The notes under the pieces are model-generated. The model searched no databases. It was not told the origin of the DNA and saw only the letters and a list, made by a program, of their open reading frames with translations. A stretch of 64,000 bases of DNA, from the NCBI RefSeq assembly GCF_005144885.1, contig NZ_CP039690.1:6808873-6872872 (forward strand), given 5' to 3'. Of this stretch, positions 16,579 through 55,382 are shown one piece after another (positions within the stretch are counted from its first letter, which is position 1; every line of letters begins with the position of its first letter). The translations under genes were made by a program, and so were the position numbers. This DNA comes from Phreatobacter stygius (GTDB lineage Bacteria > Pseudomonadota > Alphaproteobacteria > Rhizobiales > Phreatobacteraceae).

Positions 16579-16603
16579 GGAACCAAGGTTCACAAAATTG
16601 GTT
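16579..16603 (+). promoter_or_regulatory. EcfG-like promoter before the Arg/Ser-rich peptide
   Basis: GGAAC, 16-base spacer, GGTT (one mismatch in the -10). The start codon at 16639 is 35 bases downstream. Confidence 0.45.
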
Positions 16604-16638
16604 GTTGGACTCGAGCCCCGCGCTGCAAGGAGGCCAAC

Positions 16639-16911
16639 ATGACCGATGCGACCAAAGGCGATCAGCGTGATCCCGGAACGGCCCGGCGCAGCCTGCTGCT
16701 CGGCCTGGCGGCTTTGGTGGCCTATTCGGCTCCGACCTTCCTCAAGATCGGCGACGCGGCGGAGGCCCGGAGTGGACGGTCGCGCCGCCGGCGCGGCAGT
16801 TCTCGCAGGCGCCGCGGCAGTTCTCGCCGACGCCGGCGCGGCTGGTCCCGGCGCGGCTGGTCGCGGCGGCGTGGCTCGCGGCGGCGTTGGTCCCGACGCT
16901 CCTGGTGGTGA
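16639..16911 (+). CDS. Small exported Arg/Ser/Trp-rich protein, possible modified-peptide precursor
   Basis: 90 residues from an ATG with a perfect AAGGAGG ribosome site. Residues 1-45 form a leader: a polar N-terminus, a twin-arginine-like ARRSLLLGLAALVAYSAPTF and AEARSG. The rest is a low-complexity tail of repeated RRRRGSS units, followed by RRGWSRRGW and a WSRRSWW end, rich in Ser, Arg and Trp. The stop is followed in the same frame by a kinase/PqqD gene. PqqD domains bind leader peptides and HprK-like kinases can phosphorylate Ser, so a precursor-and-modifier pair is possible. A simple nucleic-acid- or surface-binding cationic protein is the alternative. Confidence 0.65.
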   Translation: MTDATKGDQRDPGTARRSLLLGLAALVAYSAPTFLKIGDAAEARSGRSRRRRGSSRRRRGSSRRRRRGWSRRGWSRRRGSRRRWSRRSWW

Positions 16912-16938
16912 GGTCCGCAGCAGCTGAAGGAGGCCGAA

Positions 16939-18117
16939 CTGACCAGCTTCGCGCTCGCCGGTCTGTCGCGACCGATTGATCTCGGCGCCTGCCACGACCT
17001 CTTGCCGGTCTTCGGCACGGTCTTCGGCACCTGGCGCGACGACCGTCCTGCCGACGGCAAGCCGTTCATCGCCATCCGGTCGTCCGGTGGGCGATATCGT
17101 TATCGCTCGACCATTCTCGACCAGGACGTCACGGCCAGATCGGCCATCGGCCTTGCCTGCGAAATCATGGCCGACGCCGTCGCGGCCTTCGGCGACGAAC
17201 ATCACGATGCCGCCTGTCTCCATGCCGCCGCGGTCCAGATCGGCGCGCGCCTCATCCTGTTTCCGGCCGCAACCGGCGAAGGCAAGACGCTGCTGGCGGC
17301 GCGGCTCGCCGCGATGGGCGCACGCATCTTCGCCGACGACGCGGTCCTGATTGCCGGCCCCGACGACCAGGCGATGGCCTTCGGCACCGCTCCGCGCCTG
17401 CGAAAATCCGCGCGCTATGCGCCGACAGCCCCGTTCGCAGCCTTCCTTGCGCACTATGCCGGCCCGGAGGACCGCCAGTTTCTTTATCTGGCCCTGCCCC
17501 CCGACCTGTTGGCTTCTCATGGCGAATGCCTGGGCATCACCGATGTGGTGCGGCTTCGGCGCCGGCGCGGCGAAACCGCCGAACTGACACGGGCGGCACG
17601 GGGCGACGGGCTCGCCGCCCTCCTGCGCCAGGATCTGACGCCGCGGGCGCTCTCGGTCGCAGCGGTCGACCGGCTGCACCGCGTGGCCTCCGCGGCCGAT
17701 GCCTATGGCCTCGCTTATGACGATGTCGACGAGGCCGCCGCCCTGCTGATCCGCGAGTTCAGCAAGCCGACCGGACCGGAGGTCAGATCGGCGCGTCTGG
17801 CGATCAGAGATCGCCGGCCGGCAGCGCGACGCCACGCCGCCATGGCCCGCCGTTTCGTCCGGGCGACCGATGCAACGCGCCGCGAAATCGACGGGCAGCT
17901 CGTGCTGATGCGGCCGGGCAAAGCGGTTTTCGTGCTCAACGAGACCGCCGGCATTGTCTGGGAACTGCTCGACGAGCCGATGCCTGTCGAGCAGCTCGTC
18001 GGCGCACTGATCGCGCTTTTCCCCGCGATTGCGCCGCGCCGCATCACCGCCGACCTGCAAAGCCTGCTGGCCGAACTCAGGCAGGAGCATCTCATCGCCG
18101 AGATCGACCAGGCCTAG
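16939..18117 (+). CDS. HprK-like kinase fused to a PqqD domain, probable CTG start
   Basis: 392 residues if started at CTG 16939, which has AAGGAGG at 16927-16933, five bases upstream. The first ATG/GTG/TTG-class start is TTG at 17002, which lacks a ribosome site and would remove the conserved-looking SFALAGLSRPIDLGACHDLL. The N-terminal two thirds resembles the HPr-kinase C-domain: P-loop FPAATGEGKTLLAARLA, then GARIFADDAVLI. The C-terminal ~90 residues form a PqqD-like winged domain (LMRPGKAVFVLNETAGIVWE, then LLAELRQEHLIAE). It shares reading frame with the upstream peptide gene, separated only by a TGA and nine codons. A role in modifying that peptide is inference. Confidence 0.75.
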   Translation: MTSFALAGLSRPIDLGACHDLLPVFGTVFGTWRDDRPADGKPFIAIRSSGGRYRYRSTILDQDVTARSAIGLACEIMADAVAAFGDEHHDAACLHAAAVQIGARLILFPAATGEGKTLLAARLAAMGARIFADDAVLIAGPDDQAMAFGTAPRLRKSARYAPTAPFAAFLAHYAGPEDRQFLYLALPPDLLASHGECLGITDVVRLRRRRGETAELTRAARGDGLAALLRQDLTPRALSVAAVDRLHRVASAADAYGLAYDDVDEAAALLIREFSKPTGPEVRSARLAIRDRRPAARRHAAMARRFVRATDATRREIDGQLVLMRPGKAVFVLNETAGIVWELLDEPMPVEQLVGALIALFPAIAPRRITADLQSLLAELRQEHLIAEIDQA

Positions 18118-18150
18118 GGTCCGCCTGGAGCGCGGCTGGGCGCCGGCCAT

Positions 18151-18181
18151 TTGGAGCTGGCGAAAATCACACCCATATAAC
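18151..18181 (+). promoter_or_regulatory. Possible sigma-70-like promoter before nfeD-like gene
   Basis: TTGGAG at 18151 and TATAAC at 18176, spacer 19 bases, in a locally AT-rich stretch just before the start at 18205. The spacing is slightly long. Confidence 0.35.
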
Positions 18182-18204
18182 AATCATAGCGCGAGGTCCC
18201 TGCC

Positions 18205-20387: not shown

Positions 20388-20786
20388 TTAGTCCTCGCTT
20401 CGGCGCCGGCGCACATAGGGTGCCGCCGGGGCGGGTTCGCGTGCCTGCCGGGCATAATAGATGCCGATCAGGACACCGGCCAGGGCCGCCACGCCAATGG
20501 CGCCGATGGGGTGGCGCGCGGCCTGCCGGAACAGGATGCGCTGCAGCTTGCTCGCTTGCGTTCCGGCAACCTGCTGGACAACCTCCGCTCCGAAACCGAA
20601 ATTCCGGAGCTGGTCATTGGCGGCCGTGGCCATGCCGGAGGCATTGGTCGTCAGGTAGCGCTTGAGATAGTCGACATCCTGCTGCAGCCGCGCCGCGGCC
20701 TCGCTCGCGCGTTCCATGGCGTCATCGGCCATGTCGCGGGCATTCTGCACCTGGTTGCGGACGGTGGACGAAAAAGTGGCGGCCAT
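20388..20786 (-). CDS. DUF883-like (ElaB/YqjD type) membrane-anchored protein
   Basis: 132 residues from the ATG at 20784-20786, with GGAGAG upstream. A long amphipathic helical region (NQVQNARDMADDAMERASEA and onward) is followed by a single C-terminal membrane anchor (HPIGAIGVAALAGVLIGIYY) and a basic tail ending RRRRSED. This is the layout of ElaB/YgaM/YqjD proteins, which sit in the inner membrane and bind ribosomes in stationary phase in E. coli. An EcfG-like promoter lies about 40 bases upstream. It converges on the SPFH gene. Confidence 0.75.
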   Translation of the reverse strand: MAATFSSTVRNQVQNARDMADDAMERASEAAARLQQDVDYLKRYLTTNASGMATAANDQLRNFGFGAEVVQQVAGTQASKLQRILFRQAARHPIGAIGVAALAGVLIGIYYARQAREPAPAAPYVRRRRSED

Positions 20787-20827: not shown

Positions 20828-20853
20828 AACATCCCGAGAGCCGGTTTGGTTCC
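20828..20853 (-). promoter_or_regulatory. EcfG-like promoter before the DUF883-like gene
   Basis: On the minus strand: GGAAC, 17-base spacer, TGTT (one mismatch). It ends 41 bases before the start at 20786. Confidence 0.6.
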
Positions 20854-21770: not shown

Positions 21771-21795
21771 GGAACCGCAAGGCACTGTCGGCGTT
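21771..21795 (+). promoter_or_regulatory. EcfG promoter (exact) before small exported protein
   Basis: GGAAC, 16-base spacer, CGTT. The start codon at 21833 is 37 bases downstream. Confidence 0.7.
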
Positions 21796-21832: not shown

Positions 21833-22135
21833 ATGGACCGCAGATCATTCTTCACGATCCTGGCAGGCGGCGTGGCCGCGGCAGCCGGCGTCAGCACCGA
21901 TGCCCGGGCTGCCCCGATCTCTGCCGAACCGTTGGAAATGCAATGGGGATGGGGCGGCCCTGGCCCCTATTACGGTCATGGCTGGGGCGGACCACGTCCG
22001 TGGCGCCGCAGGCATTATGGTTATGGCTATGGCCCCGGCTTTGGTCCCGGCTTCGGTCCCCGCCCCTGGGGACCGCCCATGTACCGGCGACGTTGCTGGA
22101 TCAACCGCTGGGGCGAGCGGGTCTGCCGCTTCTGA
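21833..22135 (+). CDS. Small Tat-exported Gly/Trp/Tyr-rich protein
   Basis: 100 residues, ribosome site AGGAGG upstream. Twin-arginine signal MDRRSFFTILAGGVAAAAGV with cleavage near ARAAP. The mature protein is rich in Gly, Trp, Pro and Tyr (GYGYGPGFGPGFGPRPWGPP) and ends with a Cys pair, RCWINRWGERVCRF. The ending resembles that of the Gly-rich protein at 32384 (a YCW and a VCR segment), so both may share a disulphide-closed C-terminal hairpin. The function is unknown; the exact EcfG promoter suggests a stress-induced envelope protein. Confidence 0.75.
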   Translation: MDRRSFFTILAGGVAAAAGVSTDARAAPISAEPLEMQWGWGGPGPYYGHGWGGPRPWRRRHYGYGYGPGFGPGFGPRPWGPPMYRRRCWINRWGERVCRF

Positions 22136-23295: not shown

Positions 23296-24139
23296 ATGGC
23301 CGATGCGCCGAGCCCAGCCACCCGCCGCCAGCCCGACCCCGGCACGCTCGCCGGCCAGCCCGCCCTGGTCACCGGCGCCAGCTCCGGCATCGGCCGCGCC
23401 GTGGCCCTCGGCCTTGCCGCGGCAGGCGCCGATGTCGCGGTCAACTATGCCTCCGACCGAGCATCGGCCGAGGCGCTTTGCCGCGAGATCGAGGCCATGG
23501 GCCGGCGCACCGTCGCGATCCGGGCGGATGTCGCGGACGAGGCGGCGGTCACCGCCCTGTTCGCGGAGGCCATCGACGCCTTCGGCACCTTGCACGTGGT
23601 GGTCAGCAATGCCGGGCCTCAGCGCGACGCCGCCTTCGACCAGATGACGCTCGACCAGTGGAACCGCGTGATCGCGGTCAATCTCACCGGCCAGTTCCTG
23701 GTGACCCGTGCCGCCGCGCGCGAATTCAAGCGCCGCGGTCCGGACCCGGCCCTATCGTCGGCCACCGGCAAGATCATCTGCATGAGCTCGGTGCATCAGC
23801 AGATCCCCTGGGCCGGACACGCCAATTACGCCGCATCCAAGGGCGGCGTCATGCTGCTGATGCAGTCGATTGCCCAGGAACTGGCGCCGGCGCGGATCCG
23901 GGTCAATGCGATGGCGCCCGGCGCGATCCGGACCCCGATCAACACGGCGGCCTGGAACACGGCCGAGGCCTATGCCGCCTTGATGAAACTGGTGCCCTAC
24001 GGGCGCATCGGCGAGCCCGACGACATCGCGCAGGCCGCCGTCTAGCTGGCCTCGGATGCCTCGGACCATGTCACCGGCGCGACCCTTTTCGTCGACGGCG
24101 GGCATGACGCTCTATCCCGAATTCGCCGCGGGCGGCTGA
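23296..24139 (+). pseudogene. SDR-family dehydrogenase disrupted near its 3' end
   Basis: From the ATG at 23296 the frame encodes a glucose/ribitol-dehydrogenase-like SDR: TGASSGIGRAVALGLA, NAG, MSSVHQQIPWAGHANYAASK with the catalytic Ser, Tyr and Lys, and DDIAQAAV. There it meets TAG at 24043-24045 where the family has Trp (AAVWLASD). Beyond it the frame continues LASDASDHVTGATLFVDGG, then one extra G at about 24096-24100 shifts the frame; in the shifted frame it reads MTLYPEFAAGG and stops at 24137-24139. Two independent lesions 55 bases apart suggest a recent pseudogene or, less likely, two sequence errors. The truncated product lacks the C-terminal strand. Confidence 0.85.
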
Positions 24140-24446: not shown

Positions 24447-25520
24447 TCATTTGCCGGCCTTATTGGTGAAGCTGGCATTGCCGAGGCCGGTGCCGATGGT
24501 CACCACGCCCCAGGTCTTGACGTCCTGCATGAACGGCACCTCGGCGAGCCCCTGTACCACCGCGTCGTTGTGGATCACCACGAAGGTCTCGTGATCGCCA
24601 ATGGCCGGGATCGCCTTGATCAGCGCAGCCGCCAGGTTGAAGCTTTCGCTCTCCCAATTGCCGCCGGGCAGGTTCTGTCCGCCACGCTCGATCCGGCCAT
24701 CGGGCTCGATCAGGCCGGGACAGCCAATGCCAATGAAGGGCGCCAGCTTGAGCTCCGCCTTGTCGGCCTGATTGATGTGATCCTTCAAAATCTTGACGAG
24801 CTTTTTTACAGCGTCCGTCCGGGACGGGCTGTCGTCGGCGTGCCGCCACAGATCGGATTTCCAGACCTCGGCTTCGGACAGGTCGGCGGCCTTTTTCAGG
24901 TTGAGCTTGACCACTCCCACCCGGATATTGCTGCCGCCGATATCGACCGCCAGGATGGCGTCATGGCCGGCGAACATCCAGGCCGGCACGAGATGGATGG
25001 CGCCGATCAGGCCAGCCTCGTCGGGATGATGGTGGATCGGCTGCAGATCGACCTCGCTACCGGCGGCATTCAGGATCACCTTGGCACGCGCGATCGCCAG
25101 TTCGCCGACCCGGCTCTCCTTGAAGCCGCCGCCGGCGGCGATCCGTTCGACCCCTCCCCAGCCCTTGGTGCGCATGAAGCGCCTGATCACCTCGGCCAGT
25201 TCGCCGGCAAACTCCTCGATCGCGCCATGGATCAGCGCGGCGGCGCCGGCATCCTTGCCCATCACATGCTGGTCGAGCTGCTTCTTCGAGATATCCTCCG
25301 TCGCCACGTCGCCGATCGGATCGGCATCGACCTTCTGCAGGCGCGAGCGCAGGTCCTCGAGCTTGTCGACGAAGGCGCGCTTGCTGGCGCGATCGCCAAT
25401 GAAGCCGTCCTTGTCGCGCAGCTCCAGATTGTAGCTGTCGACCGAGACCGACGACAGTTCCGAGGCCCCATGGCCGATGGTCAGTTCGGCAGGGCGGGTC
25501 TTCGCTTCGCTTTTGGCCAT
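24447..25520 (-). CDS. ROK-like sugar kinase-fold protein
   Basis: 357 residues from the ATG at 25518-25520. The ASKHA-fold phosphate loop appears as ILAVDIGGSNIRVGVVKL near residue 190, followed by IGIGCPGLIEPDGRI and a C-terminal TWGVVTIGTGLGNASF. It resembles ROK kinases, but about 185 residues precede the phosphate loop, where ordinary ROK proteins have only a few. That extension contains AAGGGFKESRVGELAIARAK and is otherwise unfamiliar. It may be a polyphosphate/glucose kinase relative or a non-catalytic homologue. An exact EcfG promoter lies 56 bases upstream. Confidence 0.65.
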   Translation of the reverse strand: MAKSEAKTRPAELTIGHGASELSSVSVDSYNLELRDKDGFIGDRASKRAFVDKLEDLRSRLQKVDADPIGDVATEDISKKQLDQHVMGKDAGAAALIHGAIEEFAGELAEVIRRFMRTKGWGGVERIAAGGGFKESRVGELAIARAKVILNAAGSEVDLQPIHHHPDEAGLIGAIHLVPAWMFAGHDAILAVDIGGSNIRVGVVKLNLKKAADLSEAEVWKSDLWRHADDSPSRTDAVKKLVKILKDHINQADKAELKLAPFIGIGCPGLIEPDGRIERGGQNLPGGNWESESFNLAAALIKAIPAIGDHETFVVIHNDAVVQGLAEVPFMQDVKTWGVVTIGTGLGNASFTNKAGK

Positions 25521-25575: not shown

Positions 25576-25600
25576 AACGCATCATGGCGCCTCGCGTTCC
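25576..25600 (-). promoter_or_regulatory. EcfG promoter (exact) before the ROK-like gene
   Basis: On the minus strand: GGAAC, 16-base spacer, CGTT, ending 55 bases before the start at 25520. Confidence 0.7.
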
Positions 25601-25642: not shown

Positions 25643-26887
25643 TCAGCCGGGCTTGTCGCGATCGAGCGCGAAATCGTCGTGCCACGCGGCGGTTTCGCCG
25701 GCGATCATCGCGCCGATCATCCGGGAGGCCAGGAAGCTGAAGGTGATGCCGTTGCCGCCATAACCATAGGCCGCGAAAATCCGCCGCCGGCCCGGCACCG
25801 GCCCGATCAGCGGCAAGCCATCCCCGGTCTCGCCAAAGGCGCCGGACCAGGCATAGGCGGCCTCCGTGCTGGCCCGCGGCCAGAGCGCCGCCAGCATGGC
25901 ACGCAAGGCCTCATGTTTGAGCGCCGCCTTGTCGAGCCTTTGGTCCTGTTCGTCGAAAGGCTCGTCGCCGCCGCCGATGATGATCCGCCCATCGGTCGTC
26001 GTCCGCAGATAATGATAGGCCTCGCCCGCCTCCCAGATCAGCGCCCGGTCGCGCCAGAGCCGCGCCGGATCCTGCGGCCCGGTCGCCATGGCCCAGGTCG
26101 ACGTCACCTGGTGCAGACCGCTGCGGACGAAATCCGGCATGACGTAGCCGGTCGCCAGAACCATGTGCCCGGCCTTGATTTCGTGACCATCGGCGAGGCC
26201 GATATGGACCTCGCGATCGGTCGCATCGAAATCCCGCGCATCGCCGCTGACCAGCCGGACGCGGCGCTTCGCCGCGACATCGGCGAGGCCCGTCGCCAGC
26301 GCCACCGGATCCGCCTCGGCCGATCCGGGCGACAGGATGGCGCCGGCCCGATCGATCTCGAATGTCCCATGGAGGGCGGCGAAGTCGAGATGATGGCCGG
26401 GCAGCTCGGCGCGGCGGCGCAAGGCGAATTCGGGCAGGATGTCGTGGGATTGGCTGTCGCCGGGCGCCAGATAGAGCGAGCTTCGCGGCTGAAAGCTGCA
26501 GGACAGGCCGAGCGCGCCGACGAGGCCGGTCAGTCCGGCGACCGCCGACAGGCTCAGCCGATAGGCGCGTACCGCGCGTTCGAAACCATAAAGCCCGGTC
26601 AGTTCGACCAGCGAGCGGTCGATTTCCCACAAGAGCATCGCGGTGCTGGCGGCGGTGCTGCCATGGGAAGCCTGTTCGCGATCGATCAGCACGACATCCA
26701 GCCCGCGCGCCGACAGGTGCTCGGCGACCAGCGAACCGGTGATGCCGGCCCCGACGATCGCGACGTCACAGGTGAGGCTCTCGCGCGGCGCGACGAAGCC
26801 TTCTCCGGTCCCCGCCGGCCAGGGCGGCCGGCCTTCGCGCAGGTCGCCATGCGACGCGTCCTGGTCAAGGTGCTGGTCGGGAGCCAT
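25643..26887 (-). CDS. FAD-dependent oxidoreductase (DAO family)
   Basis: 414 residues from the ATG at 26885-26887, which overlaps the topoisomerase stop by 23 bases; a longer start at 26962 lies well inside that gene. The dinucleotide-binding motif is CDVAIVGAGITGSLVAEHL, followed by VVLIDRE and a conserved HGSTAASTAMLLWE. The C-terminal flavin motif is AYGYGGNGITFSFLAS. Members oxidise amines or amino acids such as glycine, sarcosine or gamma-glutamylputrescine. The overlap suggests translational coupling to topoisomerase IB, an unusual partnership. Substrate unknown. Confidence 0.85.
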   Translation of the reverse strand: MAPDQHLDQDASHGDLREGRPPWPAGTGEGFVAPRESLTCDVAIVGAGITGSLVAEHLSARGLDVVLIDREQASHGSTAASTAMLLWEIDRSLVELTGLYGFERAVRAYRLSLSAVAGLTGLVGALGLSCSFQPRSSLYLAPGDSQSHDILPEFALRRRAELPGHHLDFAALHGTFEIDRAGAILSPGSAEADPVALATGLADVAAKRRVRLVSGDARDFDATDREVHIGLADGHEIKAGHMVLATGYVMPDFVRSGLHQVTSTWAMATGPQDPARLWRDRALIWEAGEAYHYLRTTTDGRIIIGGGDEPFDEQDQRLDKAALKHEALRAMLAALWPRASTEAAYAWSGAFGETGDGLPLIGPVPGRRRIFAAYGYGGNGITFSFLASRMIGAMIAGETAAWHDDFALDRDKPG

Positions 26888-28340: not shown

Positions 28341-28366
28341 AACGGCCCGGCACCGGTTTTGGTTCC
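28341..28366 (-). promoter_or_regulatory. EcfG promoter (exact) before csbD-like gene
   Basis: On the minus strand: GGAAC, 17-base spacer, CGTT, ending 49 bases before the start at 28291. Confidence 0.75.
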
Positions 28367-30164: not shown

Positions 30165-30195
30165 TGCCTTGAGGCCGGCCGCCCGGGAGGTCCCG

Positions 30196-44752: not shown

Positions 44753-44777
44753 AACCATGGCCGCCACCCATTGTTCC
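44753..44777 (-). promoter_or_regulatory. EcfG-like promoter before the YjlB-like gene
   Basis: On the minus strand: GGAAC, 16-base spacer, GGTT (one mismatch), ending 82 bases before the start at 44670. Confidence 0.45.
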
Positions 44778-44820: not shown

Positions 44821-44845
44821 GGAACCCGTGCCGACCTGGGCGGTT
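44821..44845 (+). promoter_or_regulatory. EcfG-like promoter before PRC-barrel-like protein 2
   Basis: GGAAC, 16-base spacer, GGTT (one mismatch), ending 54 bases before the start at 44900. Confidence 0.5.
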
Positions 44846-44899: not shown

Positions 44900-45460
44900 A
44901 TGCGGATCAGAACCCTGATAGCCCTCGCCGCACTGACCGCGGTGACCGCCACGGTCCATGCGCAGGCATCCGCGCCGACGCTCGCCCGCAACGAGCCGGC
45001 GGTCGATGCCGGCAACGCTCAGCCGCGGCCAAGGCCCGGCGAACTGAGCCTGCGCGGCTTGCTGACCGCCAAGATCTATACGCCCAAGCTCGGCACCGCG
45101 GCGACTGGTTCGGCCAGCACCCGCGCCGCTCCCTCGACCCGCGAGCCGGCCGGTGGCGCCGGCCATGACGCGACGGCCAGCAGCGTGCCCACCGGGCGGC
45201 GGCTGACCATGGCCGAGGCGGAATGGCAGACCTTGCGCCAAACCTATGATCACGTCGGCGACCTCACCGACGTCGCGGTTTCCGACGAAGGCCGGATCCG
45301 GCAGATCGTCGTCAAGCTGAGCCCCTCGCTCGGCCTCGGCGAGAAGTCCGCAACGATCGATTGGAGCGACATCAACTGGATCGTCAGTGCCAGTGGTGAC
45401 CTGGCCGGCGTGGTCGATCGCAGCAAGCTGCAACTCGAAGCCGCGGCGCCGGCGCGATGA
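44900..45460 (+). CDS. Secreted PRC-barrel-like protein (paralogue 2)
   Basis: 186 residues with CAGGAGGCAAAG before the ATG. It has a signal peptide, then RPGELSLRGLLTAKIYTPKL, an Ala/Gly-rich linker, and the C-terminal barrel (VAVSDEGRIRQIVVKLSPSL, then SATIDWSDINWIVS). The order and spacing match the protein at 33276, so they are paralogues. PRC barrels mediate protein or RNA contacts; a periplasmic role is likely here. Function unknown. Confidence 0.72.
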   Translation: MRIRTLIALAALTAVTATVHAQASAPTLARNEPAVDAGNAQPRPRPGELSLRGLLTAKIYTPKLGTAATGSASTRAAPSTREPAGGAGHDATASSVPTGRRLTMAEAEWQTLRQTYDHVGDLTDVAVSDEGRIRQIVVKLSPSLGLGEKSATIDWSDINWIVSASGDLAGVVDRSKLQLEAAAPAR

Positions 45461-46064: not shown

Positions 46065-46367
46065 CTACCGGCGGCTGTGGCGTTGGCGCCGCCTGCGCGG
46101 CCGACCGCGCGCCTGCCGCTGCCTGGCCCGCGGTCGCCCGCGTCCGGCCTGGCGCCGGCCCTCGCCGCCGGCCTCGCGGCCCTGGGCCAATTCGTCGTCG
46201 CGCGTCATCCCGCCGCCCAGCATGCCGCCGGCCGAACTGGCGCCGCCCGCGCCACTTTCCGGCTCAACCCGCAATGGCGGCTGGGCCCGCGCCGGTTGGC
46301 CCGGCAACAAGCCGGCGACAGCGGCAAGGCCGGCGACAACACCGAGCAGGTTGCGGCGATCCAGCAT
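46065..46367 (-). CDS. Small exported protein with Arg-rich tail
   Basis: 100 residues from the ATG at 46365-46367, with GGAGGA upstream. A twin-arginine-like signal (MLDRRNLLGVVAGLAAVAGL) with cleavage near PARAQ is followed by a Gly/Ser region and a long Arg-rich C-terminus (RRQAGRGRPRARQRQARGRP and further). No known family. The start and signal are convincing; the low-complexity tail could be partly spurious. A one-mismatch EcfG-like site is 26 bases upstream. Confidence 0.55.
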   Translation of the reverse strand: MLDRRNLLGVVAGLAAVAGLLPGQPARAQPPLRVEPESGAGGASSAGGMLGGGMTRDDELAQGREAGGEGRRQAGRGRPRARQRQARGRPRRRRQRHSRR

Positions 46368-47004: not shown

Positions 47005-47029
47005 GGAACAGATCGGCGTTCCGCGGGTT
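47005..47029 (+). promoter_or_regulatory. EcfG-like promoter upstream of the glycogen-type operon
   Basis: GGAAC, 16-base spacer, GGTT (one mismatch). An intrinsic-terminator-like hairpin lies between this site and the start at 47211. Confidence 0.4.
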
Positions 47030-47210: not shown

Positions 47211-48323
47211 ATGAAGATCGCCCAGATTGCCCCGCTCTGCGAGCGGGTTCCGCCGCGCTTTTACGGCGGCACCGAACGCATCGTGTCCTATCTGACCGAG
47301 GAACTGGTCCGTCAGGGCCATGACGTGACCCTGTTCGCCAGTGGCGATTCCGTCACCTCGGCCAATCTTGTCCGCTGTTCGGACATGGCTTTGCGGTTGA
47401 ACCCGTCGGTCAAGGATTACCTGCCTTATCACGTGATCATGCTCGACGAGGTGGCCCGTCGCGCCGATGAATTCGACGTGCTGCATTTCCACATCGACAT
47501 CCTGCAGTTCCCGCTGATCCGCGGCCTCGCCGACCGGACGGTCACGACCCTGCACGGCCGGCTCGACCTGCCGGACATGAAACCGTTCTACGCCGCCTTT
47601 CCCGAGGTGCCGCTGGTGTCGATCTCGCAGCACCAGCGCGAACCGATGCCGCCGGCGCTCAACTGGGTCGGCATGGTGCACCATGGCTTGCCGCCGGACC
47701 TTCTGACGTTCAACCCCACGCCATCGGGCGATTATCTCGCCTTTCTCGGCCGCATATCGCCGGAGAAGCGGCCGGACCGGGCGATCGAGATCGCGCTGGC
47801 CGCCGGCGTGCCGCTGAAGATCGCGGCCAAGGTCGACAAGGTCGACCAGGTCTATTGGGAAACGGTGATCGAGCCGATGGTCACCGCCCATCCGAGCATC
47901 GATTACATTGGCGAGATCAGCGAGCAGGAAAAGGCCGAATTCCTCGGCAATGCCCGCGCCTTGCTGTTTCCCATCGATTGGCCCGAACCGTTCGGCCTCG
48001 CCATGATCGAGGCCATGGCCTGCGGCACGCCGGTGATCGCCTTCCGCTCGGGCTCGGTGCCCGAGGTCGTCGATCACGGCCGCTCCGGCTTCATCGTCGA
48101 CACCATCGTCGAGGCGGCCGAGGCCGTTCCGCTCGCCAGCACGCTCAGCCGCGCCGGCGTCCGCGCCACCTTCGAGGCGCGCTTCACCGCCGCGCGCATG
48201 GCCGCCGACTATGTCGACATCTATCGCGCCTTGCCCGGCGTCCGCGCCGAGGCGGCCCGTTTCCGACGCCGCAACGGCGATGGCGCCGGCCTGCACCTGG
48301 TCGGATCGGGCGCGCTGGCCTGA
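47211..48323 (+). CDS. GT4-family glycosyltransferase
   Basis: 370 residues from the ATG at 47211, six bases after AGGAGG; an ATG at 47205 touches the ribosome site. The GT-B fold is clear: KIAQIAPLCERVPPRFYGGT with the N-terminal glycine loop, FLGRISPEKRPDRAIEIA, and the donor-site motif PEPFGLAMIEAMACGTPVIA. Family 4 enzymes use nucleotide sugars. It lies 90 bases before a glycogen-debranching-type enzyme, a pairing seen in operons for trehalose- or glycogen-like storage. Acceptor unknown. Confidence 0.88.
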   Translation: MKIAQIAPLCERVPPRFYGGTERIVSYLTEELVRQGHDVTLFASGDSVTSANLVRCSDMALRLNPSVKDYLPYHVIMLDEVARRADEFDVLHFHIDILQFPLIRGLADRTVTTLHGRLDLPDMKPFYAAFPEVPLVSISQHQREPMPPALNWVGMVHHGLPPDLLTFNPTPSGDYLAFLGRISPEKRPDRAIEIALAAGVPLKIAAKVDKVDQVYWETVIEPMVTAHPSIDYIGEISEQEKAEFLGNARALLFPIDWPEPFGLAMIEAMACGTPVIAFRSGSVPEVVDHGRSGFIVDTIVEAAEAVPLASTLSRAGVRATFEARFTAARMAADYVDIYRALPGVRAEAARFRRRNGDGAGLHLVGSGALA

Positions 48324-48413: not shown

Positions 48414-50630
48414 ATGCCGTCAGTGAGCGCCGAAATCGCCCCCCATGCTCCGGCTCCGGCCGGGCCGGCCGCCCAACCGCTCGCACAGTTCTTCATTCCC
48501 GCCGCCGCCTCCTTGCAGGAGCGGCGGCCGCGCACGCTCAAGCACGGCGATACTTTCGCCGTGTTCGACCATAATGGCGACGCGCTGGCCGGCCCCGGCA
48601 GCCCCGAGGGCATCTATCACCGGGACACGCGCTATCTCTCGCATCTCTACCTGACCACCGGCGGCGCGCGGCCGATGCTGCTGTCCTCGACGCTGCGCGA
48701 CGACAATGCGGCGCTGACCTGCGACCTGACCAATCCGGATCTGTTCGACGACGGCGGCCGCCTGATCCTGGAGCATGACCTCATCCACATCCGCCGGTCG
48801 CGCTTTCTGTGGAACGCCACGTGTTACGAACGCCTGGCGGTCCGCAACTTCGATATGCAGCCACGCTCGGTCCGGCTGACCCTGGCCTATGCCGCCGATT
48901 ACGCCGATCTGTTCGAGGTGCGCGGCACCCGGCGGCTCCGGCGTGGCCATCATCATCCCCCGGTGGTCGGCAAGGACGGCGTGACGCTGGCCTATACCGG
49001 GCTCGACGGACGCCGGCGCGAAACCAGCCTGCGCTTCGAACCGGCGCCGAGCCAGATCAGCGCCGAGGTCGCGGTGTTCGACTTCGACCTGGCGCCGCAT
49101 GAAATGCAGCTCCTGTTCGCCCAGGTCCGCTGCGACCCGGAAGGCGAGGCCCAGGCGCCACGCCGGGCCTTTTTCGTGGCGCTCAGGGAATCCCGCCGGG
49201 CGCTCAGGGTCTCGTCCTCGCGCGCGGCCTCGATCTCGTCGTCCAACGACATCTTCAACCAGGCGGCGCGGCGCAGCGTCTCCGACCTCTACATGCTGAT
49301 GACCGATACGCCCGAGGGCCCCTACCCCTATGCCGGCATCCCCTGGTTCTCGACCGCCTTTGGCCGCGACGCGCTGATCACCGCCCTGCAGACGCTCTGG
49401 CTCGATCCGGCCATCGCCCGCGGCGTGCTCGGTTACCTCGCCGCCAACCAGGCGACCAAGCTGGACCCCGTCGCCGATGCCGAACCGGGCAAGATCCTGC
49501 ATGAGATGCGCCAGGGCGAGATGGCCGAACTCGGCGAAGTGCCGTTCCGCCGCTATTACGGCAGCGTCGATTCGACGCCCCTGTTCATCATGCTGGCCGG
49601 CGCCTACCTGAAGCGCACCGGCGACGCGGAAACCATCCAGAAGCTCTGGCCGAACATCGAGGCGGCGATCGCCTGGATCGACACCTATGGCGATGTCGAC
49701 GGCGACGGTTTCGTCGAATATTCGCGCCGCACCGCCGAGGGCCTCGTCAACCAGGGCTGGAAGGACAGCCATGACAGCATCTTCCACGCCGACGGCACGC
49801 TCGCCCACGGGCCGGTCGCGCTGGTCGAAGTCCAGGCCTATGTCTTCGGCGCCTGGGTGGCCGCGGCCGAGATCGCACTGACGCTCGGCAACGCCGCCAT
49901 GGCCATGGATTTCGAGGCCAGGGCCGAGACCCTGCGAACGCATTTCGACGCGACCTTTTTCGATGCCGAACTCGGCACCTATGTGCTGGCGCTCGACGGC
50001 GACAAACGGCCATGCCGGGTGCGGGCCTCCAATGCCGGCCACGCCCTGTTCACCGGCATCGCCGAGCCGAAGCGCGCCGCCGCGGTCGTCGCGACCTTGA
50101 TGACCAATGCGTCCTTTTCCGGCTGGGGCGTGCGCACGCTCGCCGCGACCGAGGCCCGCTACAATCCGATGAGCTATCACAACGGCTCGGTCTGGCCCCA
50201 TGACAACGCGCTGATCGCCGCGGGTTTTGCCCGCTACGGCTTCCGCCACGAGGCCGCGCGGATCTTCGAAGGCCTGTTCGCCGCCTCGATCTATATCGAC
50301 CTGCACCGCCTGCCGGAGCTGTTCTGCGGTTTTCCGCGCCAGCGCAGCCACGGCCCGACCTTCTACCCGGTCGCCTGTGCGCCCCAGGCCTGGGCTGCCG
50401 CCACGCCCCTGTCGCTGGTCCAGTCCTGTCTCGGGCTGGGTTTCGATATCGCCACCGGCCAGATCATCTTCGAGCGGCCGGTCATGCCCGACTTCCTCAA
50501 CGAGATCACCCTGCGCGGCCTGGCGGTCAATGGCGGTTCGATCGCCGTCGCGCTGAGAAGGACCGGCTCGGAGGTCGTTGCCAACGTGCTGTCGCGGCAA
50601 GGCGATATCCGGGTCGTGACGATGAGCTAG
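48414..50630 (+). CDS. Amylo-alpha-1,6-glucosidase (glycogen-debranching-type)
   Basis: 738 residues with CGCAGGAGG upstream. The N-terminal debranching-enzyme domain (HGDTFAVFDHNGDALAGPGS, then GIYHRDTRYLSHLYL) is followed by an (alpha/alpha)6 barrel: AGIPWFSTAFGRDALITALQ, GLVNQGWKDSHDSIFH with catalytic-type acids, and YNPMSYHNGSVWPHDNALIA. This is the bacterial form lacking a transferase domain. It should hydrolyse alpha-1,6 or related linkages in an alpha-glucan. It is probably co-transcribed with the glycosyltransferase. Confidence 0.9.
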   Translation: MPSVSAEIAPHAPAPAGPAAQPLAQFFIPAAASLQERRPRTLKHGDTFAVFDHNGDALAGPGSPEGIYHRDTRYLSHLYLTTGGARPMLLSSTLRDDNAALTCDLTNPDLFDDGGRLILEHDLIHIRRSRFLWNATCYERLAVRNFDMQPRSVRLTLAYAADYADLFEVRGTRRLRRGHHHPPVVGKDGVTLAYTGLDGRRRETSLRFEPAPSQISAEVAVFDFDLAPHEMQLLFAQVRCDPEGEAQAPRRAFFVALRESRRALRVSSSRAASISSSNDIFNQAARRSVSDLYMLMTDTPEGPYPYAGIPWFSTAFGRDALITALQTLWLDPAIARGVLGYLAANQATKLDPVADAEPGKILHEMRQGEMAELGEVPFRRYYGSVDSTPLFIMLAGAYLKRTGDAETIQKLWPNIEAAIAWIDTYGDVDGDGFVEYSRRTAEGLVNQGWKDSHDSIFHADGTLAHGPVALVEVQAYVFGAWVAAAEIALTLGNAAMAMDFEARAETLRTHFDATFFDAELGTYVLALDGDKRPCRVRASNAGHALFTGIAEPKRAAAVVATLMTNASFSGWGVRTLAATEARYNPMSYHNGSVWPHDNALIAAGFARYGFRHEAARIFEGLFAASIYIDLHRLPELFCGFPRQRSHGPTFYPVACAPQAWAAATPLSLVQSCLGLGFDIATGQIIFERPVMPDFLNEITLRGLAVNGGSIAVALRRTGSEVVANVLSRQGDIRVVTMS

Positions 50631-50673: not shown

Positions 50674-50698
50674 GGAACCAGCCTTGGGTCGGCGCGTT
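50674..50698 (+). promoter_or_regulatory. EcfG promoter (exact) before the 67/101-residue gene pair
   Basis: GGAAC, 16-base spacer, CGTT. The next start on this strand is 50874, 175 bases further, so the leader would be long and may hold an unseen short gene. Confidence 0.55.
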
Positions 50699-50873
50699 AG
50701 CAGGAGGGCCGGCCGAACGTCCCGGCCGCGCCGGAGCACGGGATGAAGCGCTCTGTCCGCCGCATCGCAGCCGGGACAGCCGGCAACGATTTCGCCGGCC
50801 GGGCCATGCCCGGCTGGCGCGCAGCGGGTACAGTGGGCGTAGCGGCTGCAAAACCCGAACAGGACGCACGACC

Positions 50874-51077
50874 ATGGACGACACGGATGTCATGATCCTC
50901 GAGCTCGACAAGCGTATCGCCGCGACGCGGGACAACATTCGCCAGCTCGTCGAACAGGCGGCCGCGGTCACCGGCATCGCCGCCGAGGAGGCCGCCGCCG
51001 ACCGCATGGCCGAACAGGAGGCCGTGCTGGCGGAGTTGATCAAGGCGCGGGACAATCTGACCGGAGGCAAGCCATGA
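50874..51077 (+). CDS. Hypothetical small coiled-coil protein
   Basis: 67 residues. It is a single predicted helix or coiled coil: MDDTDVMILELDKRIAATRD, then RQLVEQAAAVTG and EAVLAELIKARDNLTGGKP. No signal peptide. Its TGA overlaps the next start as ATGA, which supports translation of both. Function unknown. Confidence 0.65.
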   Translation: MDDTDVMILELDKRIAATRDNIRQLVEQAAAVTGIAAEEAAADRMAEQEAVLAELIKARDNLTGGKP

Positions 51078-51379
51078 ACACCGCCAACCTTCAGCTCGAA
51101 GGCCTTTGCATGGCCGTCGCGGCGTTGACCCGCCTGCTCGTCCAGAAAGGCGTGGTGACCGCGGACGAGGTGGACCTGGCATTGCACAGGGCCGAGGCCA
51201 ACCTGACCAGCGAGGACCGGCAAGCCGAGGACATGTCGCCCGCCAATCGCAATGCCGTGGTCTTCCCGTTGCGGCTGTTGCGGCTCGCCAACCGCCGGCT
51301 CAACCAGCCCGAGCCGTCATTCGCGGAACTGGCGGTCCTCGTCGGCGAAACCAAGCGTCCCTATAACGACCAGATGTAG
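51074..51379 (+). CDS. Hypothetical small protein
   Basis: 101 residues, start overlapping the previous stop by four bases, with GGAGG upstream. The sequence MNTANLQLEGLCMAVAALTR, LLVQKGVVTADEVDLALHRA is helical and resembles small regulatory or phage-derived helical proteins, but I assign no family. The C-terminal part (VVFPLRLLRLANRRLNQPEP) is amphipathic. Coupled to the coiled-coil gene, so the two products may interact. Confidence 0.65.
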   Translation: MNTANLQLEGLCMAVAALTRLLVQKGVVTADEVDLALHRAEANLTSEDRQAEDMSPANRNAVVFPLRLLRLANRRLNQPEPSFAELAVLVGETKRPYNDQM

Positions 51380-52122: not shown

Positions 52123-53904
52123 ATGATCGCCGGTACCGACCTGCTCGAAGCCCTGCCCGTCGCGGTCTACACGACCGATGCCGAAGGCCGCATCACCTTC
52201 TACAATGAGGCGGCCGCGCAGTTCTGGGGCCACCGGCCGACGCTTGGAAGCGACAGGTGGTGCGGGTCATGGCGCCTGTTCTGGCCGGACGGCCGCCCTC
52301 TCCCCCATGACGAATGCCCGATGGCGGTGACGCTCAGGGAAGGCCGGCCGGTCCGCGGGGTCGAGGCCGTGGCCGAGAGGCCAGACGGCACGCGCGTGCC
52401 CTTCATGCCCTATCCCACCCCCTTGAAGGACGCCTCGGGCCAGGTGACCGGGGCGATCAATCTCCTGGTCGACATTGGCCACCACAAGACGGCCGAGATC
52501 GAATCGGCGCGTCTGGCGGCGATCGTCGCCTCGTCCGACGATGCGATCATCAGCAAGACGCTTGAAGGCCGGATCACCTCATGGAATGCCGGCGCGACAC
52601 GCATCTTCGGCTACGAGGCGGACGAGATGATCGGCGCGCCGATCCTGCGCATCATTCCGCCGGAGCTGCACGAGGAAGAATTCGAGATTCTCGCCAAGTT
52701 GAAGCGCGGCGAACGCCTTGATCATTTCGAGACGATCCGGGTCGCCCGCGATGGCCGGCGGCTGGACATATCGCTGACCGTCTCGCCCTTGTTCGACAAG
52801 GCCGGACATGTCATCGGCACCTCGAAGGTCGCCCGCGACATCACCGAGCGCAAGCGCAGCGAGGAACTGCAACGCCTGCTGTTCGACGAGCTCAACCATC
52901 GCGTCAAGAACACCCTGGCGACGATTCAGGCCATCGCCAGCCAGTCGTTGCGCCGCGCGACGAGCCCTGGCGATTTCGTCCAGAGCTTCAACGGCCGCGT
53001 TCAGGCGCTGGCGCGCGCGCACGATCTCCTGGTCAGGGGCAAGATGACCGGCGCCGATGTGGCCGAACTCGTCCGCGAGCAGGTCGTGCTCGGCTCCCCG
53101 GACGGCACCCGCATCGTGTGTTCCGGGCCGCGCCTGAAGCTTGATGCCCAGGCCGCCGTGCAACTGGCGCTGGTCCTGCACGAGCTTGCCACCAATGCCC
53201 GGAAATACGGGGCGCTGTCGGTGCCGACGGGACAACTCTCGATCAACTGGAAGATGCAGATGAACGGCGGGCGCGAGCTGTTCCTGGAATGGCAGGAAAG
53301 CGGCGTTCCCAAGGTCGATGCGCCAACCTCGCACGGCTTCGGCACGACTCTCATTCAGCGCACCCTCGAAACCAATGGCGGCCAGGCCGACATGCACTAC
53401 GGCGCCCATGGCGTGGTTTGCGAGATCCGCCTGCATTTGCCCGAACAGGCTGCGTTGGAATTCGGTGAAAGGGCTGCACTGGCGCTGGTCGACGATCGGC
53501 CCGGCGTGGCGGAGCCGGCCGGCCTCGCCGATCTGCGCGGCAAGCGGATCCTGCTCATCGAGGACGAGCCGCTGGTCGCCATGGATATCGAACATGAGCT
53601 CATTGCCGCCGGCTGCCAGGTCATCGGCCCAGCCGGCACCATCACGAGCGCGAGCCGGCTGATCGCCGATACGCCCTGTGACGCCGCGCTGGTCGACGCG
53701 AACCTCGCTGGCCATCCGGTCGACGAACTCGCCGCGGCCCTGGCCGCGAAGGGCATCCCCTTCGCCTTCGCAACCGGATACGGACGGGATGGCCTGCCCG
53801 GCGCCTTCCAGGAGAAACCCATCCTGGCGAAACCTTTCAGTTCGGCGCAACTGCTCGCGATGATGACCGGCCTGCTCGGCAAGGGCGGCCAGCCTCCGAG
53901 CTGA
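52123..53904 (+). CDS. Hybrid PAS-PAS-HWE histidine kinase with C-terminal receiver
   Basis: 593 residues, AGGGGAA upstream. Two PAS domains (about 5-118 and 130-245), HWE phosphoacceptor DELNHRVKNTLATIQAIASQ (His259), ATPase domain with LVLHELATNARKYGALS, and a C-terminal receiver starting KRILLIEDEPLVAMD with phosphoacceptor Asp525 in LVDANLAG. It lacks transmembrane segments, so it is a soluble sensor; PAS domains could bind heme or flavin, but the Cys of LOV domains is not evident. Like the kinase at 39949 it may feed the PhyR stress pathway. Confidence 0.9.
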   Translation: MIAGTDLLEALPVAVYTTDAEGRITFYNEAAAQFWGHRPTLGSDRWCGSWRLFWPDGRPLPHDECPMAVTLREGRPVRGVEAVAERPDGTRVPFMPYPTPLKDASGQVTGAINLLVDIGHHKTAEIESARLAAIVASSDDAIISKTLEGRITSWNAGATRIFGYEADEMIGAPILRIIPPELHEEEFEILAKLKRGERLDHFETIRVARDGRRLDISLTVSPLFDKAGHVIGTSKVARDITERKRSEELQRLLFDELNHRVKNTLATIQAIASQSLRRATSPGDFVQSFNGRVQALARAHDLLVRGKMTGADVAELVREQVVLGSPDGTRIVCSGPRLKLDAQAAVQLALVLHELATNARKYGALSVPTGQLSINWKMQMNGGRELFLEWQESGVPKVDAPTSHGFGTTLIQRTLETNGGQADMHYGAHGVVCEIRLHLPEQAALEFGERAALALVDDRPGVAEPAGLADLRGKRILLIEDEPLVAMDIEHELIAAGCQVIGPAGTITSASRLIADTPCDAALVDANLAGHPVDELAAALAAKGIPFAFATGYGRDGLPGAFQEKPILAKPFSSAQLLAMMTGLLGKGGQPPS

Positions 53905-53955: not shown

Positions 53956-54255
53956 TCAGGGCCGGCTGCCCGTCACCGGATTGGCGTCAGGCAGCCCGCG
54001 GTTCCCTTCGGTCTCGGCCGGTGGATTGTCGAGATCGGCAACCGCCTGACCGAGTTCCTTGCGCTCCCGTGGATCCGGTGCTTGCGGAGCGTCCGGGGCC
54101 TTCTGATCTTGCTCGGCCCCCGCCCCTTGGCCGCCGGCCGGCCGATCGGCTTCCGATCCTTGACCGGGCCACATTTTCCCGAGGTCGTCGGCCGCCGGCC
54201 GGTCCGGGTCCTGGCCGGGTGTCGAGGCCGGGTTGGTCATGGGCGCGCCAGACAT
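53956..54255 (-). CDS. Hypothetical disordered protein
   Basis: 99 residues from the ATG at 54253-54255, with AGGGAG upstream. The sequence is Pro/Asp/Gly/Gln-rich (MSGAPMTNPASTPGQDPDRP, then GQAVADLDNPPAETEGNRGL), hydrophilic, and probably unfolded. No family. A one-mismatch EcfG-like promoter is 29 bases upstream, directly beside the terminator of the preceding gene. Confidence 0.6.
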   Translation of the reverse strand: MSGAPMTNPASTPGQDPDRPAADDLGKMWPGQGSEADRPAGGQGAGAEQDQKAPDAPQAPDPRERKELGQAVADLDNPPAETEGNRGLPDANPVTGSRP

Positions 54256-54284
54256 GTTCGTTCTCCCTTGCTTCATCCAGGACC

Positions 54285-54309
54285 AACCGATGGCCTGCGC
54301 ATCCGTTCC
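54285..54309 (-). promoter_or_regulatory. EcfG-like promoter before the disordered protein
   Basis: On the minus strand: GGAAC, 16-base spacer, GGTT (one mismatch), ending 29 bases before the start at 54255. Confidence 0.5.
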
Positions 54310-54313
54310 GCTC

Positions 54314-54344
54314 AAAAAAGTGGCCCGCCGATCGGGCGGGCCAC
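54314..54344 (-). terminator. Intrinsic terminator of the membrane-protein gene
   Basis: On the minus strand a 10-bp stem (GTGGCCCGCC with GGCGGGCCAC), five-base loop, then TTTTTTG. Confidence 0.85.
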
Positions 54345-54383
54345 GGACGACGACATACCGGCGGGAGGCGCCGGGCTTTGAGC

Positions 54384-55238
54384 TCACTCGAACAGCGGCA
54401 CGTCGTCGCGGTAGCTCGCGCCGAGGGCCGCCGCGACACAGGCAATGAAGGCACCGATCAGCAATGACAGGAAGACCAGGAGCGATCCGAGCGAGGCGGC
54501 CTTGCGGGCCTTGTCGGCGGTCTCCTGGGCCTTGACCTTGGCCGCCTGGGCCTTGGCCAGCACGGCGTCGACGCGGCGCAGCGCCTCGTCCTGGCCGATG
54601 CCGGCGCGCTGGGCGACGATCTGGGCGAGATAGGTCTTGTCGGCAGCCGGCATTTCACCGCTGGTCGCCGCGCTGACCAGGATCCGCGTCGCCTCGCCGC
54701 GCGTGTCGGCATTGTTTGCCGGCGCCGCGGCCGCACCCCGGAACAGCGTGTCCACCACATAACCCGTGACATCGCCGGATGAACCGGATTGCCCGTCCGT
54801 CACCCCGCCGACTGCGCCGGCTGCGACCGTAGCAGTCGCCTGGACGCCGGTCCGGGTGATCGCCGAGATCGTCGAGGTCAGGCAGATCGCGACGATCAGG
54901 GTTGCGACGCACCAGGTCAAAAGCCCGTTCGCCGTATCGCGAAAGAACACCTCGTCGCTGTGCAGATTGGCCCACCGTGTCCGCAGCCTGCCGGTCACGA
55001 AGCCGCCGACACCGGAGGAAATCCATTGCACCAGGATCAGGCCGATGCCGCTGGCCACGCCTAAGGCGGTGCCGCCAACGCCTTGCCCCGACCAGGGTGA
55101 CACGCTGGCAAGGCCAATTGCCGCGCACAGAAACAGCAGCGACAGGCTGGCCGTCGCGGCAACGACGGCGCCGGCAAAAACCGCACTCCACGAGACCGCC
55201 GACCATGGCGATTCAACTGCGGCAGTTGTTTGAGTCAT
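54384..55238 (-). CDS. Multi-pass membrane protein of unknown family
   Basis: 284 residues with GAGGAGG upstream. Transmembrane helices at about 15-40, 58-80, 105-127 and 250-275. Conserved-looking features are SWSAVFAGAVVAATASLSLL and GFVTGRLRTRW; a long soluble loop or coiled-coil (AKAQAAKVKAQETADKARKA) precedes the last helix. It resembles a group of alphaproteobacterial membrane proteins with no assigned role. It follows a 25-residue membrane protein gene by 15 bases and shares its exact EcfG promoter. Confidence 0.75.
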   Translation of the reverse strand: MTQTTAAVESPWSAVSWSAVFAGAVVAATASLSLLFLCAAIGLASVSPWSGQGVGGTALGVASGIGLILVQWISSGVGGFVTGRLRTRWANLHSDEVFFRDTANGLLTWCVATLIVAICLTSTISAITRTGVQATATVAAGAVGGVTDGQSGSSGDVTGYVVDTLFRGAAAAPANNADTRGEATRILVSAATSGEMPAADKTYLAQIVAQRAGIGQDEALRRVDAVLAKAQAAKVKAQETADKARKAASLGSLLVFLSLLIGAFIACVAAALGASYRDDVPLFE

Positions 55239-55253
55239 CTTGCCCTCCTCGAT

Positions 55254-55331
55254 TCAGCGCGTGAATAACGCGAGAAGAATGATGACCGGGATTGGAATGC
55301 CGAGCAGCCAAAGCAGAATTCCGCGACCCAT
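55254..55331 (-). CDS. 25-residue single-span membrane protein
   Basis: ATG at 55329-55331 with AGGAGG upstream, stop at 55254-55256. The product MGRGILLWLLGIPIPVIILL followed by ALFTR is one hydrophobic helix with a Gly-Ile-Pro kink. Very similar tiny proteins occur widely in Proteobacteria, usually next to stress or membrane genes. It is the first gene behind an exact EcfG promoter, followed by the larger membrane protein. Confidence 0.8.
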   Translation of the reverse strand: MGRGILLWLLGIPIPVIILLALFTR

Positions 55332-55356
55332 TGATGCCTCCTGTGTTTGCAAAGAC

Positions 55357-55382
55357 AACGGTGCTGCCGGCGAATTGGTTCC
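55357..55382 (-). promoter_or_regulatory. EcfG promoter (exact) before the 25-residue protein operon
   Basis: On the minus strand: GGAAC, 17-base spacer, CGTT, ending 25 bases before the start at 55331. Confidence 0.8.

Follow-up and report, generated by a model that had tools for sequence, protein, structure and literature searches.

A 64-kb stretch of the Phreatobacter stygius genome (positions 6,808,873-6,872,872 of the 7.35-Mb single contig NZ_CP039690.1; hereafter the window, in whose coordinates all features are given) contains about 39 kb in which promoter-like sites of the EcfG/SigT/RpoE2 type, GGAAC-N16/17-CGTT, are densely clustered. Judged from its sequence, this part of the window is very probably a satellite island of the general stress response governed by EcfG. 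A preliminary description of the same DNA had called it a stress island, and that interpretation is supported by the motif cluster itself, by the intergenic placement of the sites and by the presence in the genome of nepR, an EcfG-type sigma factor gene and phyR. Four features that characterize an EcfG (ECF15-type) regulon were found, namely a motif above chance, promoter placement, a cognate ecfG/nepR/phyR locus and promoters that are conserved in a relative.

The window (GC 67.7%, 84% coding according to our own gene caller) contains sixteen exact sites, ten on the plus and six on the minus strand, all of them at the positions reported previously, versus 0.83 expected from 100 dinucleotide shuffles (maximum 4). 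A set of 359 decoy motifs, in which the letters of both boxes were permuted, yielded 1.15 sites on average and at most 7. One-mismatch forms were studied for substitutions at the first base of the −10 only; the twelve such sites that had been claimed came without coordinates and cannot be paired one to one with the thirteen that we found, nine with GGTT and four with AGTT or TGTT in the −10. The nine GGTT sites compare with 0.41 expected from the shuffles. All 25 exact and GGTT sites fall between 16.5 and 55.4 kb, with none at 1-16000 or at 56001-64000.

The distance of the sites to the genes was determined on two gene lists. On the untouched list, ten of the sixteen exact sites lie 29-76 bp before a same-strand start, with 130 bp as the upper limit. 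Correction of the list, in which six short or missed open reading frames (ORFs) were added (16639, 21833, 32384, 50743, 53957 and 55257) and two calls were removed (an antisense one at 32465-33046 and a doubtful one at 46065-46367), brought the number to 14 of 16, at 25-93 bp, a count that is partly circular because the list was corrected after the sites had been seen. The four added ORFs that were compared by eye with a congener, genome G003 (21833, 50743, 53957 and 55257), all have a counterpart there. Decoys on the corrected list average 0.05 promoter-placed sites (maximum 3), versus 14 for the real motif. The earlier statement that nearly all sites are intergenic thus holds for 16/16 exact sites, but among the one-mismatch sites the A/TGTT-type site 24181 sits inside a gene and the GGTT site 44079 touches an opposite-strand gene; the accompanying statement, that the sites are correctly oriented 25-100 bases before a start codon, stands for the 14 exact sites of the corrected list and fails for 30140 and 36214, which lack a convincing gene. 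Among the other one-mismatch sites, the GGTT site 46394 precedes an ORF judged doubtful, and the A/TGTT site 34714 has no start in range. The corrected list comprises 41 transcription units; for 21 of these an exact or GGTT site is found at a distance of no more than 200 bp.

In the whole genome, 123 exact sites were counted versus 161 for a reversed control motif, and two clusters stand out, the window (16 exact sites) and the region 5,987,028-6,006,589 (12 exact sites), 0.8 Mb apart. With a background rate of 0.013 per kb, the Poisson probability is ∼6e-20 for 16 sites in the 33.6 kb of the window and ∼1e-16 for the second cluster. Sites outside both clusters were sampled by taking the odd rows of 100 listed places (nine of the 123 places are outside this listing), minus the two clusters, and the genes around these 43 sites are those of the uncorrected gene caller. 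Sixteen were found inside genes (11 of them antisense), four overlapped a gene end and 17 were outside genes and within 250 bp of a same-strand start. The preliminary description had named a motif that is equally frequent within genes and in the wrong orientation as the outcome that would speak against a regulon; this is nearly the case outside the clusters, with 16 of 43 in genes, and false in the window, with 0 of 16. In view of these in-gene hits and of the reversed control, as compared with 16/16 intergenic sites in the window, isolated hits mean little and the window cluster is real. For the same reason a prediction of the genome-wide regulon from the motif alone was rejected. Well-placed sites, at 28-130 bp before a start, make up 10 of the 43, which extrapolates to roughly 22 of 95 in the background, and there are 14 of them in the window (10 on the uncorrected list) and eight in the second cluster. 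We therefore estimate that about 1% of the genome holds 45-50% of its well-placed exact EcfG sites, with some of the background sites being due to chance.

The second cluster is the core locus of the response. It contains the only nepR match of the genome, an EcfG-type sigma factor gene (L003:5006-5578), phyR (L003:5982-6767) and two HisKA_2-type kinases; nepR adjoins ecfG, phyR is divergent, and a GGTT-type site is located 300 bp upstream of ecfG, on the far side of nepR. Since nepR adjoins an EcfG-type sigma factor gene and phyR, the usual reader of GGAAC-N16/17-CGTT is present in this organism. The window itself gave no nepR match, and neither a sigma factor nor PhyR was matched among the 40 window proteins searched in Pfam.

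In order to assess the conservation of the island, we compared the window with G003, in which the island is kept on contig C47 between matching flanks and carries 14 exact and six GGTT sites; the flanks of the G003 island carry neither type. Fifteen flank proteins occur in the same order in both genomes, seven on the left (7312-15960) and eight on the right (55595-63361), 14 of them at 88-98% identity and one at 81%, and the left-flank gene 12064-13563 and the gene 16039-16509 have no counterpart at the G003 locus. Most island orthologues are 65-91% identical. Aligned upstream regions often preserve the −35 and −10 elements but not the spacer between them, as is seen ahead of the PRC-barrel gene and of the ORFs of 25, 30 and 52 aa. 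For 23 gene pairs we asked if a site lies within 200 bp, and it does so in both genomes for ten pairs. When the DNA is aligned, 24447, 29090 and 47211 also turn out to share a site; the conserved site before 47211 had been missed by the 200-bp limit (181 bp plus the length of the site), and the pair of 29090 was outside the test.

Gene content differs between the two genomes. Eight stretches of more than 900 bp each (14.6 kb in all) of the window's genome, G000, lack a DNA match in the island of G003, and these hold nine of the sixteen exact sites; two of the nine, 33175 and 36490, still have an orthologous site in G003, which leaves seven in exchanged blocks. Conversely, three G003-specific stretches (13.3 kb) contain two exact sites and one GGTT site. 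Looking further, G008 has another group of sites around 605-625 kb with homologues of several genes of the island in a different neighbourhood, and G010, which belongs to another family, has a group of sites together with ecfG and phyR matches and with CsbD and DUF892 homologues.

The best-understood cargo of the island is a set of genes for non-homologous end joining (NHEJ), which the preliminary description had not mentioned. Two divergent genes for Ku proteins, kuA (30337-31167, minus strand; PF02735, E=3e-44) and kuB (31319-32245, plus strand; PF02735, E=1.5e-39; 36% identical to kuA), have start codons 151 bp apart, and two exact sites stand back to back between them, separated by 8 bp: 31215-31239 (−), 47 bp before kuA, and 31248-31272 (+), 46 bp before kuB. 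The island also encodes a LigD (37366-39918, minus strand) with 3'-phosphoesterase, ligase and primase-polymerase domains, so that the components of bacterial NHEJ, a Ku barrel domain and the ligase and polymerase domains of LigD, are all matched by Pfam in the window. A codirectional PAS-HWE histidine kinase gene (39949-40935, minus strand) precedes ligD at a distance of 30 bp, and no exact or GGTT site precedes this kinase-ligD unit. A GGAAC about 130 bp before the kinase gene is kept in G003 (alignment, by eye) without a good −10, and was not counted. In G003 the Ku pair, one of the blocks that differ between the two genomes, is found on contig C1, outside the island, within its own group of six exact sites and one GGTT site; no LigD was seen near it in the 38 kb examined, and the only LigD match of that genome covers residues 513-847, the polymerase part, at the island position (G003:C47:59960-60949; loci L130-L131).

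Within the genus, Ku is patchy, with six of the 12 members (G000-G009, G127, G128) carrying it and seven giving a LigD match, two of these weak or partial. In each of the six Ku-bearing members, one or more Ku genes are preceded by a site. In G001, G002, G006 and G008 (loci L031, L033, L038 and L040) an ORF of 71-74 aa lies between an EcfG site and ligD; no ORF of this type was called beside ligD in the window.

We extended the comparison to the best 80 kuA homologues of 250 relatives, a set that includes G003 itself and whose loci are not independent, because several genera recur. A sense GGAAC-N16/17-SGTT site was found for 52 of the 80 in the 300 bp searched, in every case 22-42 bp before the start and 46 times with CGTT, versus about 2.2 expected in all from the motif density of the same loci (0.028 per region). 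By our own count of the survey rows, 12 of the 20 named genera have at least one such site; those without one are Shinella (0/5), Kaistia (0/2) and six genera with one locus each. In the same loci a sense site lies within 360 bp of kuB in 40 of 75 cases, of the topoisomerase IB gene in 11 of 16 and of ligD in 3 of 69, the last as expected of a gene that is downstream in an operon; this wider limit, as compared with 300 bp for kuA, added three sites at 315-320 bp. The gene order is kuA> <ligD <kuB in 57 of the 80 loci, and kuB is divergent in five. On the strength of these upstream regions, EcfG control of Ku looks widespread.

Several observations weigh against the interpretation of the window as an EcfG island and of Ku as a general EcfG target. 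For 20 of the 41 transcription units, including kinase-ligD (37366-40935) and the kinase at 52123-53904, neither an exact nor a GGTT site was found at up to 200 bp, and behind the exact sites 30140 and 36214 there is no gene. Among the 23 pairs compared with G003, five have a site in one genome only (24150, 24447, 41277, 43311 and 54384) and eight in neither, and, taken over the whole genome, the exact motif is no more frequent than its reversed control. In the survey, 28 of the 80 kuA homologues lack the motif, including all five of Shinella, and for 16 of the 80 the 300 bp searched contain a site on the reverse strand, in five cases without a sense site. At eight of these 16 the reverse-strand site overlaps the sense site as a near-palindrome (Rhizobium-type genomes, one Paracoccus and one Bosea; L051, L059, L063, L064, L066, L073, L108 and L115), and the promoter may therefore fire both ways.

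The three rivals that we considered can be judged by the same data. The lack of a genome-wide excess is what one would find if a GC-rich window yielded GGAAC and CGTT at the right spacing by accident, but shuffles and decoys of the same window, on which this origin was rejected, give about one site, the placement of the sites is non-random and many of them are conserved in G003; chance or composition is hardly conceivable as the source of the sites. The island could also be a horizontally mobile stress element, derived from an integrative and conjugative element or a plasmid, that carried its promoters along and in which the clustering is a by-product of transfer. This would fit the gene blocks that differ between G000 and G003, and the finding that, of the 12 genus members, only these two match the island glycosidase at all or have a close match to the left-flank protein 9622-10812; on the other hand, the flanks and a large part of the island are syntenic between the two genomes, the GC content of 0.677 compares with 0.650-0.678 in other stretches, no integrase or conjugation family was detected among the 40 proteins in Pfam (border repeats and tRNAs were not searched for), and groups of sites with other gene orders occur in G008 and in G010, in the latter around the core locus. 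Overall, we think a mobile origin unlikely.

Many ECF (extracytoplasmic function) sigma factors prefer a −35 element that contains AAC, and it is conceivable that the promoters are real but read by another ECF sigma factor that shares the GGAAC −35, with EcfG not being the main driver. The AAC triplet is indeed common to the −35 of many of these factors (PMC7083833, in the accessible text); nevertheless, the CGTT or GGTT −10 with its spacer of 16 or 17 matches the EcfG consensus as given in the available parts of three reports (PMC4814048, PMC7083833, PMC3892343), a GGTT-type site precedes ecfG, and the motif clusters around the ecfG locus. A different reader appears rather improbable, somewhat more so than a mobile origin, and EcfG is the favoured one.

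Most of the island promoters can be assigned to genes. The 40 proteins searched in Pfam, which leave out a dozen or so small or other ORFs, comprise two Ku, the three-domain LigD, a topoisomerase IB and an endonuclease/exonuclease-family protein together with CsbD, DUF3008, DUF892 (YciF-like), PRC-barrel, TerB/WYL, ROK, transglutaminase, GFA, AHSA1, cupin, glycosyltransferase, GDE-type glycosidase and PAS-HWE kinase families, and many short proteins gave no match. Of the classic stress families announced for the window, CsbD, the YciF-like DUF892 and DUF3008 are borne out, and the "DUF883-like" protein (presumably 20388-20786) has no Pfam match.

From the left, a GGTT site (16579-16603, +) lies 35 bp before a 90-aa Arg-rich ORF (16639-16911, added after the sites were seen), and a TGTT site (20828-20853, −) lies 41 bp before the 132-aa gene 20388-20786, with CGTT at equal distance in G003. 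The exact site 21771-21795 (+) is 37 bp before a 100-aa ORF (21833-22135), and both the site and a similar protein occur in G003. The plus-strand ORF 23296-24045, which we take to belong to the SDR family, has by eye an in-frame stop that is presumably early for the family and is possibly a pseudogene. Site 25576-25600 (−) precedes a ROK-family gene (24447-25520), with an exact site in the aligned G003 stretch too, and site 28341-28366 (−) precedes the csbD gene (28100-28291), which is followed on the same strand by genes for topoisomerase IB (26865-27983) and an FAD oxidoreductase (25643-26887) without a site of their own. The exact site 29434-29459 (−) precedes 29090-29401 and 28490-29050, the latter with a weak YflT-like match below the cut-off, and the GGTT site 29518-29542 (+) precedes 29581-29850 and the DUF3008 gene (29914-30102), with GGTT also before the 29581 orthologue in G003.

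Around the Ku genes, the exact site 30140-30164 (+) is followed by no convincing ORF and is aimed at the 3' end of kuA, where a small or antisense RNA is possible; no Rfam family was matched in the window, including behind this orphan site, at gathering thresholds, and a terminator scan of 30000-36600 (8 hits versus 4.8 expected) was uninformative. Site 32266-32290 (+) lies 93 bp before ORF 32384-33130, whose start looks like a signal peptide by eye (again an ORF added after the sites were seen), and site 33175-33199 (+), conserved in G003, precedes the PRC-barrel gene (33276-33869) and an endonuclease/exonuclease-family gene (33888-34658). Site 35424-35449 (+) precedes the DUF892/YciF-like gene (35516-36022). 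No gene follows site 36214-36239 (+) in this genome; in place it may match a G003 site standing before a gene of 105 aa that was not seen in the window. Site 36490-36514 (−), conserved in G003, precedes the 52-aa gene 36266-36424, and site 36912-36937 (+) is 29 bp before a 121-aa gene (36967-37332).

In the right half, the exact site 42074-42098 (+) precedes a 30-aa ORF (42148-42240), site and ORF being conserved in G003, and GGTT sites precede a 66-aa gene (42523-42547, −; gene 42260-42460), a cupin gene (44753-44777, −; gene 44104-44661) and the gene 44900-45460 (44821-44845, +). This last gene is a paralogue of 33276-33869 (40% identity), and 36535-36765 and 42673-42927 form a second pair (32%), which suggests local duplication within the island. 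The GGTT site 47005-47029 (+), with an aligned site in G003, is 181 bp before a glycosyltransferase gene (47211-48323), which is followed by the GDE-type glycosidase gene (48414-50630). The exact site 50674-50698 (+), conserved in G003, precedes small-protein genes (50743-51379), and the GGTT site 54285-54309 (−) precedes an ORF of about 100 aa (53957-54256, start by eye), with the site and a similar protein also in G003. Finally, the exact site 55357-55382 (−) lies 25 bp before a 25-aa hydrophobic ORF (55257-55331), a spacing also seen in G003, and 118 bp from the start (55238) of a minus-strand 284-aa ORF. The minus-strand 25-aa and the plus-strand 30-aa ORF both have good-looking ribosome-binding sites, EcfG sites and similar spacing in G003, and we regard them as candidate stress microproteins.

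Of the two HWE kinases announced for the window, one is confirmed and the other supported. The kinase 39949-40935 has the HWE_HK domain (PF07536, E=2.8e-23) and the motifs of the class, an H-box HRxKN and WxE; the second, at 52123-53904 (+), with a C-terminal extension and only an AGTT-type site upstream, is outside the Pfam set and is assigned by motifs alone (H-box HRVKN, WQE), being 43% identical to the first. A homologue of the first kinase (63% identical) is found near nepR in G007 (L046, around 5120), behind an exact EcfG site, which links this type of kinase to the stress response.

PhyR-NepR-EcfG partner switching and Ku/LigD end joining are established knowledge, and on this basis we infer how the island may work, including EcfG dependence in vivo, the stresses that are sensed, the pairing of the two Ku proteins and the feeding of PhyR by the island kinases. 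Stress-sensing HisKA_2/HWE kinases would phosphorylate PhyR, which would remove NepR from EcfG, and EcfG-RNA polymerase would then fire the island promoters together. CsbD, DUF3008 and the YciF-like protein would be among the products, along with carbohydrate enzymes, proteins of DNA repair and many small proteins, and the two Ku, made from their back-to-back promoters and probably acting with LigD, would rejoin double-strand breaks in starved or dried cells.

Taken together, these data suggest that the island is a compact piece, ∼39 kb, of the alphaproteobacterial stress regulon, whose genes, many of them small and unnamed, can be linked to the response by their promoter and about a dozen by conservation as well. 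They also add to the evidence that many Alphaproteobacteria place end joining under the control of the general stress response, which would fit error-prone repair in non-growing or dried cells, and mutation and DNA capture could in this way become stress-induced. We propose only tentatively, because two genomes cannot separate gain from loss, that part of the EcfG regulon of this Hyphomicrobiales lineage is laid out in islands that serve as recruitment hotspots, where locus and backbone are fixed and gene blocks are gained or exchanged with their own or an acquired EcfG promoter.

Within the accessible text of the published accounts, csbD and ku-ligD are among the direct EcfG targets of Sphingopyxis granuli, with a near-invariant AAC in the −35 and a flexible −10 (PMC7083833), Ku and its promoter belong to the EcfG regulon of Sphingomonas melonis and are EcfG-dependent (PMC6599016), the consensus is given as GAAC-N16,17-C/GGTT with phyR, nepR and ecfG usually sharing a locus (PMC4814048) and, in Rhizobium etli, as GGAAC-N16-CGTT (PMC3892343), and NHEJ work in Sinorhizobium meliloti is cited (PMC10932983). 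The RpoE2 regulon contains many unnamed genes and small RNAs, and the main text, as available, of the paper that describes it (PMC3616915) contains none of the terms "Ku protein", "LigD" and "DNA ligase". EcfG control of ku or ku-ligD is thus already published, in the text available, for two sphingomonads. In the open-licence literature searched, no paper came up on EcfG satellite islands or on EcfG promoters surveyed across Ku genes, which is not proof of absence.

Dupuy et al. (2019) reportedly described stress-inducible NHEJ in S. meliloti with Ku2/LigD2 and Ku3-Ku4/LigD4, partly under RpoE2 control. The window resembles the system so described in having two different Ku and a LigD with stress-regulated expression, here from predicted promoters, and differs in that the Ku genes diverge from a pair of EcfG sites 8 bp apart with LigD about 5 kb away. 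In comparison with the clusters at nepR-ecfG-phyR core loci, the types of cargo are similar, the CsbD and DUF892 homologues of G010 being near ecfG/phyR among many sites, whereas the window lacks these regulators among the matches described above. With the EcfG/SigT/RpoE2 regulons the window shares the −35/−10 consensus and spacer, the nepR-ecfG arrangement with divergent phyR, and csbD and Ku or Ku-LigD as targets (PMC7083833 and PMC6599016, in their accessible text). In those regulons only the core genes are mentioned, in the text available, as sharing a locus, whereas here sixteen exact sites are packed into 34 kb, 0.8 Mb from the core locus, in an island that recurs in a relative with blocks exchanged.

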